Positions 35,347-39,182 of a DNA stretch of 60,811 nucleotides are shown in pieces. This DNA is from Candidatus Peregrinibacteria bacterium CG10_big_fil_rev_8_21_14_0_10_36_19 (GTDB lineage Bacteria > Patescibacteriota > Gracilibacteria > UBA1369 > LOWO2-01-FULL-3). The stretch spans positions 334,136 to 394,946 of the forward strand of contig PFDP01000014.1 in the NCBI GenBank assembly GCA_002772535.1, read 5' to 3'. Numbering within the stretch: position 1 is the first letter of the stretch; every line of letters begins with the position of its first letter. A program made the position numbers and the translations under genes. The notes under the pieces are model-generated. The model ran no database searches and had not been told where the DNA came from. It worked only from the letters and a program-made list of their open reading frames with translations.

Positions 35347-35811
35347 ATGTCTCAAGAATTAGACCCATATCGCATACCAGCCTATCAGAGAAAAAAGAGT
35401 TTAGCCGCTAAAAGCAGAAGTTCGAAAGTTAGCTCAATCAAAAAAACAAAATCAAAAACTATTGAAGAGTTATCCATATTAGATAGCCAAAAATCCAATC
35501 TCTTTGAAGAAGAGCTAGAAAAAATGCGAAACATCAATAAACGCGAACTTAAAAGCGTTAGAGAAATGAAAATTTGCGGACAATGTGAAGGATATTTTGA
35601 AAAAATAAATGTCGCAATAATTAAAGTAACAAGCCCAATAAGACAAGGTGACAGACTTGTTTTCGAAAAATCAGAAGGACTCTTCGAACAAACGCTCGAA
35701 TCAATGCAAAGAGATAAAAAGGATATAACCCTAGCGCGCTCAGGAGACGATATTGGCACAAAAGTAGCCATGCCTCCAAAAATAGGAACACCAGTATATA
35801 AAGTAATATAA
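35347..35811 (+). CDS. EF-Tu-domain-II-like small barrel protein with basic N-terminus
   Basis: 154 residues. The N-terminal 60 or so are Ser/Lys-rich and polar, then a coiled-coil-like helix (about 48-72). The C-terminal 80 residues (GYFEKINVAIIKVTSPIRQG, DRLVF, VAMPPKIGTPVYKVI) form a small beta barrel like domain II of translation GTPases and the C-terminus of U32 peptidases; similar barrels occur alone as 'translation elongation factor-like' proteins. Two Cys (CGQC) sit just before the barrel. It lies 5 bases after pta and overlaps ackA by one base. Role unknown. Confidence 0.75.
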   Translation: MSQELDPYRIPAYQRKKSLAAKSRSSKVSSIKKTKSKTIEELSILDSQKSNLFEEELEKMRNINKRELKSVREMKICGQCEGYFEKINVAIIKVTSPIRQGDRLVFEKSEGLFEQTLESMQRDKKDITLARSGDDIGTKVAMPPKIGTPVYKVI

Positions 35812-36908
35812 TGAAAATACTAGTAATAAATTCAGGCTCTTCTTCAGTTAAATACCAATTTTTCAATAACAAAAATGAAGTAATAAAAAAAGGGTATGTA
35901 GAAAGAATTGGTCTACCACTAGCCAAATGCAAAAACCACGCCGAAGCCATCAATCAAATAATTATGTCCTTACCAGAAACTCCTGATGCCATAGGCCATA
36001 GAGTTGTACACGGTGGAAATTTATACAACAAAGCAACAAAAATCACTACAACAGTGATAAAACATATAAAAGAGCTTTCATCATTAGCGCCTCTACACAA
36101 CCCCCACAATCTCGAAGGAATTTTAATATGCAAAAAATTATTACCAAAAACACCACAAGTAGCAGTGTTCGACACCGCTTTTCATCAAACAATTCCAGAA
36201 ATAGCGCATCGCTATGCCATACCAAAAAAATATTATGAAAAAAACAACATTCGTCGTTATGGATTTCATGGTACTAGCCACCAATATGTTGTTAACGAAG
36301 CTCTCAAACACATGAAAACCAAAAAAGCCAAAATAATTTCCTGCCATCTCGGCAATGGCTCATCAATTACAGCCACACTCAACGGAAAATCTATAGACAC
36401 AACCATGGGCTTCACTCCTCTAGAAGGCATCATGATGGGCACCAGATCAGGCTCCATAGACTCAGGTATTATTTTCCACCTTCATAACAAATTAAAATTA
36501 AAGCCTGAAAAAATCGAACAAATTCTACAAAATGAATCCGGACTACTTGGACATTCAGGCATATCTTCCGATATGCGTAAAATCTACGCCAAATACAAAA
36601 AGGGCAACAAAGCAGCCATCGCCACAATCGAAACACTAGCCTATCAAATAGCAAAACAAATAGGAGCATATGCTGCCTCCCTAAATGGCCTAGACGCCAT
36701 AATATTTACAGGAACCTTAGGTCAAAATGCTTTCTATGTACGTAAAATCGCCCTAGAACAACTCACCTATCTCGGACTTAAAATCGACCCAAATCTCAAC
36801 ACCAAAAACTCCTCAGCAATTCACCACAAAACCTCAAAAATAAAAGCCTTCGTAATTCCAACAAACGAAGAATTACAAATTGCTAAAGAAACAAGAGATA
36901 CAGTTTAA
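35811..36908 (+). CDS. ackA: Acetate kinase
   Basis: Makes acetate and ATP from acetyl phosphate and ADP. 365 residues, slightly shorter than the usual ~400. Opens ILVINSGSSSVKYQ; GHRVVHGG, FDTAFHQTIPEIAHRYAIP, YGFHGTSHQY and LGNGSSITA are all present, with catalytic and ATP-binding residues intact. Last gene of pta operon. Only 12 bases separate its stop from the large palindrome at 36921. Confidence 0.96.
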   Translation: MKILVINSGSSSVKYQFFNNKNEVIKKGYVERIGLPLAKCKNHAEAINQIIMSLPETPDAIGHRVVHGGNLYNKATKITTTVIKHIKELSSLAPLHNPHNLEGILICKKLLPKTPQVAVFDTAFHQTIPEIAHRYAIPKKYYEKNNIRRYGFHGTSHQYVVNEALKHMKTKKAKIISCHLGNGSSITATLNGKSIDTTMGFTPLEGIMMGTRSGSIDSGIIFHLHNKLKLKPEKIEQILQNESGLLGHSGISSDMRKIYAKYKKGNKAAIATIETLAYQIAKQIGAYAASLNGLDAIIFTGTLGQNAFYVRKIALEQLTYLGLKIDPNLNTKNSSAIHHKTSKIKAFVIPTNEELQIAKETRDTV

Positions 36909-36920
36909 AAGCCTATTTCA

Positions 36921-37192
36921 ATTTATAGGAACCTTTATGATTTTGTGAGTTGAGGAATTCTGACAGTAAATCCTATTGAAGAAATGCGCAAAAATCTCAA
37001 CTGTTTGAGGAAATGTTTATATAACAACATTATGCGAAGTCCGTTTTTGGTGGCAGCATTCGCTGACCAGCCAAAAAGCGGGACGAAGCCACACTTTCAA
37101 AAAACATTTCCGAGTTTTGAGATTTAGCATTTCAAAATATAGATTTACTCAAAATTCTGATCTGAACAAAAGAATAAAGAGTTCCTATAAAT
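36921..37192. repeat. 272-bp imperfect palindrome with 12-bp perfect ends
   Basis: ATTTATAGGAAC (36921-36932) is exactly inverted at 37181-37192. The arms stay recognisably complementary for about 95 bases each (for example the GTAAATC and AAATCTCAA blocks and a GGAAATGTTT block on both arms). The centre folds as GTCC-G-TTTTTGG-TGG (37039-37053) against CCAGCCAAAAAGCGGGAC (37067-37084), capped by CAGC-ATTC-GCTG. The right end runs 8 bases into the 3' end of the convergent gene and supplies its stop. No transposase. It fills the entire gap between ackA and that gene. Confidence 0.85.
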
Positions 37193-39182
37193 CTTGTTCA
37201 TAAATAGCATCTGCACTCAGCACATACATTTTTCTAACATCCGGATCAACATATACATCTCTCAATTCACCTACACCTTCAAACAAATATTGAGCTTCAT
37301 AAGTAACATTCCCCGTTCTTGAATCTTTTCTATAAACCAAAACTCTTGCTTCAGCACTATCTAAAACAAATATTTGATCCAACTTTTCATCAGTATAAAT
37401 AACCTTTGGATCTTTTAAGTTAGAATATGGAGGATTGTTAACAAAAAACTCTGCTTTCTTACCAGCATAAAATTTAGAAATATCTCCAGCACTATTCAAA
37501 AGATAAATATTAGAATCAATACAAATACTTCTAGAAGTGCTTAAATCTTCACCTTCTGGCAAATAGGCTTCACCGGAACCAAATGTGTCACTAGTACCTT
37601 TGTAAGCATATCTCCAAATTTGGCTTCCATCAGCATCTAATAAATAAATTTTATTACTCCAATCAGCAATATCAACCGCTTTGTGGAAAGAACCATCTGT
37701 TGTATCCATAAAGGAAACCGTGCCATCACGATATTCCAGCAATTTTCCAGATTTAGTTAAGAAAACGATAGAATTTCTGTCATCAAAACCGGTAGCAGCA
37801 ATCACAGTTTCTTGATCATCAAGCGTTACAGGATCTTGAACTTGATCCAAAACAACTTCATACAAACCATCAGCCTCATAAACAAACACTCTATTTCCAA
37901 CTCTAGCAAAACCTAAAGCGCTAACATTCGAACGCTTAGCTGCTAAATCAGCTAGTTTTTTAGGAGAAGATAGCCTTTGGACATTATCAAGCTTGTCTCT
38001 AGTTTCATCAATTTGGATTAAATAAACCTTAGCTCTATCACGATAATTTCCAGAATTTAAAACCTCAATCGCATCTAAATATGCTTTATCCAAAATATCT
38101 TTTGCCAATTCCTTATCGTAAGCCCCTTTTGTTTCAGCTTCTGCAATCTTTTCTTGAACATTACTCAAAATACCATCTAATCTGCCCAATTCTTCACGTG
38201 ATGCTTTTTGAGCACCAGCAATCCAAATACCAATCAAAAGAACTCCAATAACAATAACCAGCAAAGCCAAAACCTTATCCTTTCCAAAACCTGCAGAAAA
38301 TAAACCTCTATAACCACGACCAAAAAATTCTCCAACTGAATTCAAAATTCCCTTACCTCCACTTAAAACCTGTGGACTCTTAGATTTGTAGCCATTAAAC
38401 ATAGTTACAAATTTTCCTGTAAGTGTTTCCTTATTAGCAGAAAAATGACCATCATCAGATTCTAAAACACTTTTAGCAGCCATATCCACATCAGACTCTA
38501 TTCTCTTTACATCATCAAAACTAGCTTTTTCAAAAACCATTGCCGTGAAACCAATTCTTCCCAACATTTCTGTAGAAATAATATCTCTAATTTCGTTCAA
38601 AGTGCCCTCAACATCATTTTTATTTATTGCTTGAGCCAAATCAGTCTTACCAATATATCTTAATAAACGAGTAGTCGAAAAAATAATAAAATCACCCTCT
38701 TCAATTTTTCCATTTGCTATACTACTAAAAACATCTTTTGAATCATCATCCTCATCACCAAGACCCTCAGTAACTATACTCACATATCTCTTCCTTATAA
38801 GGTACGCTTCACTATCACCCGCTTTAGACAAAAATAACGTATCACCAACAATAGCAGCAACAACAACATTCAAGTTGCCAATATAGCCAGAGCTTTTTTG
38901 TGACATAAATTTACCTAAAACATCGTTTACATCTTTCAAAGCTATTTCAAAACGATCATATGGATCCATACTTACATCTTGAAAAAAGCTACCTCTTAGA
39001 GTTTCAAAAATAGCAGCTCCAATCTCATCTGCATCTACAGGATTATTTTGGACTTCCAGATTTATGAAGATCTGTCCGCCATTTTCTCCATGTTCATGAA
39101 AAAGATCATAGGCATAGTTTTCGAGGAAACTATTATCATCTTTCCCCACAAACATGAATTCATAAGCAGCTTTTAGTGGCAT
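37185..39182 (-). CDS. PP2C-like domain membrane protein with extracytoplasmic propeller-like domain
   Basis: 665 residues. Residues 1 to about 235 resemble PP2C-type phosphatases or their inactive relatives (VAAIVGDTLFLSKAGDSEAY, then GDFIIFSTTRLLRYI), although some metal Asp are not evident. One membrane helix lies at about 300-320 (VLALLVIVIGVLLIGIWIAG), followed by a coiled coil (about 325-390) and a region of repeated strands like a beta propeller (about 405-665, e.g. NRVFVYEADGLYEVV, DQIFVLDSAEARVLVYRK). This layout suggests a sensor outside and a signalling domain inside. Its stop TAG lies in the palindrome. Confidence 0.75.
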   Translation of the reverse strand: MPLKAAYEFMFVGKDDNSFLENYAYDLFHEHGENGGQIFINLEVQNNPVDADEIGAAIFETLRGSFFQDVSMDPYDRFEIALKDVNDVLGKFMSQKSSGYIGNLNVVVAAIVGDTLFLSKAGDSEAYLIRKRYVSIVTEGLGDEDDDSKDVFSSIANGKIEEGDFIIFSTTRLLRYIGKTDLAQAINKNDVEGTLNEIRDIISTEMLGRIGFTAMVFEKASFDDVKRIESDVDMAAKSVLESDDGHFSANKETLTGKFVTMFNGYKSKSPQVLSGGKGILNSVGEFFGRGYRGLFSAGFGKDKVLALLVIVIGVLLIGIWIAGAQKASREELGRLDGILSNVQEKIAEAETKGAYDKELAKDILDKAYLDAIEVLNSGNYRDRAKVYLIQIDETRDKLDNVQRLSSPKKLADLAAKRSNVSALGFARVGNRVFVYEADGLYEVVLDQVQDPVTLDDQETVIAATGFDDRNSIVFLTKSGKLLEYRDGTVSFMDTTDGSFHKAVDIADWSNKIYLLDADGSQIWRYAYKGTSDTFGSGEAYLPEGEDLSTSRSICIDSNIYLLNSAGDISKFYAGKKAEFFVNNPPYSNLKDPKVIYTDEKLDQIFVLDSAEARVLVYRKDSRTGNVTYEAQYLFEGVGELRDVYVDPDVRKMYVLSADAIYEQDL

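Follow-up and report, generated by a model that had tools for sequence, protein, structure and literature searches.

MITEs, ERIC, NEMIS/Correia and REP/BIME sequences each occur in limited taxa only, and it is by conserved ends or by short REP hairpins that they are recognised. The attC site of integrons is recognised as folded single-stranded DNA in which some bases are unpaired and the terminal structure varies, and the skipping-rope RNA (RF02924) is a hairpin with conserved internal loops that occurs in several phyla. The element considered here lies at positions 36921-37192 of a 60,811-nucleotide stretch of DNA (the window) from the 1.07-Mb genome of Candidatus Peregrinibacteria bacterium CG10_big_fil_rev_8_21_14_0_10_36_19. 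With a probability of roughly 0.6, it represents an insertion of a dispersed, non-autonomous palindromic element that is mobilised in trans and recognised as a folded single strand.

The element is 272 bp long and ends in exact inverted repeats of 12 nt, ATTTATAGGAAC (36921-36932) and GTTCCTATAAAT (37181-37192), as an earlier, sequence-only reading of the window had described. That reading was also right about two complementary arms of about 95 bases (about 100 nt pair in each arm, with internal loops between), a central cap CAGC-ATTC-GCTG (at 37054-37065, centred on 37059.5, with the ends centred on 37056.5), and the lack of a T tract and of any open reading frame of the element's own. The whole length folds into one long hairpin with internal loops at a minimum free energy of -88.9 kcal/mol, against a mean of -54.2 (sd 4.6) for shuffled versions (z -7.5; 0 of 200 shuffles as good). 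When palindromes were scored by arm alignment, stretch by stretch, over 1,071,475 of the 1,074,598 bases of the genome (99.7%), the element ranked first with a score of 92, the runner-up reaching 75, and it is a clear outlier inside the window. Its junctions read ATT[TATA]GGAACC ... GAGTTCC[TATA]AAT, and the target itself is palindromic; the earlier statement that no obvious target duplication is seen has to be softened, because TATA or TA stands directly at both ends and a short duplication is possible.

On the plus strand, which carries the CTGTTTGAG tip motif, the whole element is delimited by its inverted ends, fold z, palindrome rank and homology to a second copy at C6:43918-44216. The left outer arm (36921-36942, ATTTATAGGAACC...) pairs with 37172-37192, as judged from the exact 12-nt end and the fold, and is little conserved in the alignment with the C6 copy. 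It is followed by the left inner arm (36943-36999), whose blocks TTGTGAGTTGAGG, TAAATC and TTGAAGAAATG comprise helices and internal loops and were placed by the C6 alignment and by helices 1-5 of the 15-member alignment described below. The left half of the tip motif, ACTGTTTGAG (37000-37009), was located from members found by covariance models and from the cross-phylum core, and the right half, CGAGTTT (37111-37117), from these and the C6 alignment. Between the halves (37010-37110), comparison with other members reveals an expanded variable terminal structure, with an extra stem that carries the CAGC-ATTC-GCTG cap, in place of the GCGNAGC tip; the tip is opened in this way in both the window copy and the C6 copy, and its halves are only 3-13 nt apart in other members. 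The right inner arm (37118-37171), with blocks GAGATTTAGC, AGATTTA and GAACAAAA, was defined by alignment with the C6 copy and the 15-member family. The right outer arm (37172-37192), set by the ends and the ORF positions, includes the TAG stop (37185-37187, minus strand) of the convergent gene.

The element begins 12 nt after the stop of ackA (acetate kinase; 35811-36908, plus strand; Pfam PF00871, E 5e-127) and overlaps the end of a convergent gene (37185-39182, minus strand) for a conserved protein of 665 aa, which is present in 29 of the 30 genomes of the host's family. This protein has no Pfam match; by eye, a GDSEAYL motif in its N-terminal half suggests a PP2C-like domain. The element had been said to supply the stop codon of this gene, and the TAG does lie inside its right end, but the gene was not rewritten, since the same final residues (..DL, stop) are found in relatives without the element. 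The ackA/665-aa convergent pair is old in the host's family. Its gap, 276 nt here, is at most 26 nt, often with overlapping gene ends, in 13 of the 22 relatives in which both ends of the pair could be placed. Because the orthologous gap is mostly this short, the element is taken to have been inserted; the host lineage therefore gained the extra DNA, multiple losses being the less likely alternative.

Other palindromes were observed around the 665-aa gene. In one relative (L014, genome G025) the same ackA gap, beside that gene, is occupied by two palindromes that are unrelated, and comparison with L013, L017 and L019 of the same genus, where the gene ends overlap, suggests a CTAA duplication. 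Palindromes of 240-330 bp lie near the gene at L025 (G024) and L026 (G015), with shared ends ACGGCTGTGCTATGTGGTTTCC and different interiors. At L027, L032, L035 and L036, further unrelated palindromes stand immediately 3' of its stop, which marks the ackA/665-aa gap as one where palindromic DNA has landed repeatedly within the family. Elsewhere in this genome a second palindromic family has five copies (C3:181481, C3:308956, C8:92109, C8:97239 and C10:48685; L047, L053, L080, L084), with a tip GGTCTCGTGGTTTCC, internal loops AGCGTAGTA and TACGAAGCT, and arms that differ yet pair. For four of these copies, the 3' end of a tRNA gene (Lys, Gln, Thr, Trp) is no more than about 110 nt away.

The search for further copies proposed earlier depended on its settings: default blastn against the host's own genome and 98 relatives returned only the element itself, and the C6 copy was detected solely with word size 7 and match/mismatch scores of +1/-1. 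This copy lies between a gene for 212 aa and rpoB, upstream of rpoB, and is colinear with the window copy through both arms and the tip at 77% mean column identity. RNAalifold finds 59 pairs shared by the two; in 15 of them both bases differ, and in 1 a single base does. These counts are suggestive, because the structure was picked from the same two copies. Both follow a stop codon in sense direction, and having diverged, they do not demonstrate recent movement in this genome.

A covariance model built from these two copies (R1) recovered four further members, spread over three genomes of the host's family, with E values down to 2e-16 per genome, and these members have a specific loop sequence in common, beyond a mere stem. 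A second model (R2), built from the six and searched against the host's family and then 353 genomes of the class, brought the aligned set to 15 members (13 besides the window and C6 copies), drawn from 12 genomes that carry one to three each; three of these genomes belong to other families. In this alignment, which was fitted to the structure and so favours its own pairing and covariation figures, 93.1% of cells pair, two-sided changes occur at 35 of 39 helix pairs, and the covariation score is 0.555, compared with 0.16 for shuffles and 0.046-0.096 with slid partners; the covariance analysis that had been called for thus yielded compensatory changes far above its controls. What is conserved is unpaired or belongs to the tip, namely TTTTGT..TCATCAAAA, GAAGAAA..AGCTTTC, GCGTTAAAAA..TTTTTAGC and the tip ACTGTYTGAGCG-NAG-CGAGTTT. 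Helix sequences vary, and the outer arms are the most variable yet often pair exactly.

Copies in relatives are patchy, low in number and variable in site. One copy between the HU and topA genes of genome G002 (L127) is absent from the same gap of its congener G025; the flanks align, and G025 has unrelated sequence where the copy sits, so that the position of the junction is ambiguous. No unambiguous target-site duplication was found for the window copy or in this presence/absence pair. Furthermore, a stop codon is touched or closely precedes the element in at least 8 of the 14 intact small-genome copies, and since several copies abut stop codons, insertion appears to be often tolerated right at gene 3' ends.

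The tip extends well beyond these small genomes. Searched as the pattern CTGTYTGAGCGNAGCGAGTTT in GTDB species genomes, it was found in at least 119 stretches from Bacteroidota, Bacillota, Pseudomonadota, Nitrospirota, Patescibacteria and others, where about one was expected by chance by estimate, and in the cross-phylum loci it is again flanked by long arms. R2, which contains small-genome copies only, matches loci of Flavobacterium and Peptococcaceae end to end at E of about 1e-8 in 0.6 Mb, although these loci were chosen for the tip and its share of the score is not independent. With up to two mismatches allowed, the tip occurs 91 times in Flammeovirga OC4, 70 times in Noviherbaspirillum suwonense, 34 times in a gammaproteobacterial MAG and 21 times in Alkalibaculum, with no match for the reversed-pattern control in any of the four; other genomes in the count had nonzero controls and were given less weight. 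Within one genome the inner layer is common to the copies, and the arms differ but stay complementary. In viral contigs the tip pattern had two matches, two blocks of the window copy searched as exact patterns had none, and a plasmid search with two cross-phylum copies as queries gave four weak matches or none. Scans of the window, the members and seven cross-phylum loci gave no Rfam 15 family that covers the element with a match above the gathering score. No paper printing the tip was found in a literature search that covered mainly papers available without subscription, and shorter 12-mers led to papers that, among the matches listed, look unrelated by title. A second conserved hairpin, CTTGATTTTTTGGTTACTTTTTG-ATCAAG-CAAAAAGTAAC, often follows the element in Bacteroidota and Pseudomonadota; at L144, L150, L167, L188 and L189 it lies 3' of the tip and could form a pseudoknot.

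The arm mismatches bear on the form in which the element is maintained. Among 76 non-redundant cross-phylum copies, isolated mismatches outside the tip comprise 57 G·T and 22 A·C (p 1e-4), and the same count in the small-genome set shows no G·T excess (6 G·T, 7 A·C). The excess suggests that one single strand, folded in the orientation of the tip, is the selected form, because a duplex or cruciform gives no such preference; strand mutation bias could mimic part of it. GCGNAGC is known from the literature as a very stable DNA mini-hairpin; that it acts as one in the tip is not supported by DNA folding, in which the bare tip formed no stable hairpin.

The flanks of tip-bearing loci are convergent in 14, divergent in 11 and codirectional in 45 cases, like background gaps (p 0.86 and 0.40), and sense and antisense placements are both common. 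The occurrence of copies in all three kinds of gap alike disfavours a terminator role. A bidirectional terminator, or a hairpin separating the convergent ackA and 665-aa genes, would suit the gap in the window and a palindrome that can fold on both strands; given the missing T tract, and relatives that do without the element and often have overlapping gene ends, such a role is very improbable. Still harder to credit is a dif site for chromosome dimer resolution, or an integrated element exploiting Xer, on the minus strand at 37013-37041. There TTCGCATAATGTTGTTATATAAACAT looks dif-like by eye and is the one exact pattern match in the genome, but the reading requires a 5-nt centre, and the resemblance falls within the variable terminal structure, where the C6 copy does not share it. 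Over contig C3 the GC skew is negative before and after the site, with no change of sign, and as the position is not at the GC-skew switch, it is not the chromosomal dif.

A structured non-coding RNA that serves the host (as a small RNA or a 3' UTR element), repetitive by chance, spread by duplication or transfer and kept for its RNA, would account for the conserved loops and covarying stems; the one-strand G·T excess is what is expected of an RNA under selection, and both copies in this genome are sense-oriented after a stop codon. It sits poorly with the patchy, low-copy and site-variable distribution in relatives, with up to about 90 copies in some genomes, with background-like flanking orientation and both placements, and with the lack of any Rfam match among the scanned members and tip-bearing loci, and is regarded as unlikely. 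Less probable again is a classical MITE, which would have arisen from a DDE transposon by deletion and would move by means of that transposon's transposase, acting through the terminal inverted repeats. The short, non-coding form, the exact 12-bp inverted ends on a 272-bp body, and the insertion at new sites agree with it, and a possible TATA/TA duplication would be compatible. Conservation, however, is lowest at the ends, which differ between copies, and is seen instead in the tip and internal loops, the opposite of what a MITE shows, and no partner transposon was found when Y1 transposases were searched.

No partner transposase for the element emerged from that search. The Y1 transposase (PF01797) is absent from the element carriers G000 (this genome, with two copies), G017 (three copies), G008, G020 and G028, and present in G001 and G002; two IS200-like enzymes have no relative in 121 tip-bearing loci. 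RAYT/IS200-type enzymes were accordingly rejected as mobiliser, as their presence does not track the element.

The sequence-only reading had offered a miniature inverted-repeat transposon, a structured RNA or a protein-binding palindrome. Insertion (13 of 22 gaps, together with copies at other loci) and covarying structure both stand, so that the MITE and structured-strand readings are not exclusive, whereas a classical MITE is not shown, no partner transposase having been found; the earlier MITE and structured-RNA ideas are each half right. Not visible from the sequence alone were the conserved tip and loops and how far they extend over the phyla. That reading had also named the outcome that would count against it, a single copy lacking compensatory changes and any trace of insertion, and the opposite was found on all three points. 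Mobility is supported by copies at unrelated loci and by absence from the same gap in relatives, and we infer the single-strand mechanism and its enzyme. The family is a gene-less, long imperfect hairpin whose helices covary but differ in sequence and whose internal loops are conserved, as is its tip, ACTGTYTGAGCG-NAG-CGAGTTT. In the favoured reading an enzyme acting in trans would mobilise it and recognise the folded single strand (ssDNA or RNA) with its CTGTYTGAG motif, presumably reading the loops and tip while the stems merely hold them in place.

A wider proposal is tentative and rather less probable than its converse: one gene-less mobile family would span many phyla, be recognised as a folded single strand via a universal tip and loops on freely evolving stems, and owe its movement to some widespread enzyme with which it has yet to be connected. 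If correct, a hairpin with one conserved tip would be among the most widely distributed small bacterial repeats, one not in Rfam and for which no description was found. Conserved loops on free stems would imply a recognition rule of structure first and sequence in the loops. A covariance model would let annotators label gaps that are now unexplained, and the search for the mobiliser has a defined substrate.

Among known systems, the skipping-rope RNA resembles the element as a hairpin with conserved internal loops in several phyla; the RF02924 model has no match in the window, the whole genome or the members tested, and one match above cut-off in a relative, at a different locus. The attC site resembles it in being a folded strand that has unpaired bases and a terminal structure that varies, but no R'/R'' motifs are seen here by eye, and the element is dispersed whereas attC stands in an array. 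REPIN/RAYT systems use a folded ssDNA substrate, the kind of mechanism proposed for the element; it differs in not being two short REPs in inverted order, and the Y1 transposase is absent from five carriers. With MITEs, ERIC, NEMIS/Correia and REP/BIME sequences it shares a short, gene-less, palindromic, dispersed and intergenic form that sometimes gives a neighbouring gene its stop codon, but what is conserved across phyla in this element is the tip together with the internal loops, and it is the ends that vary.
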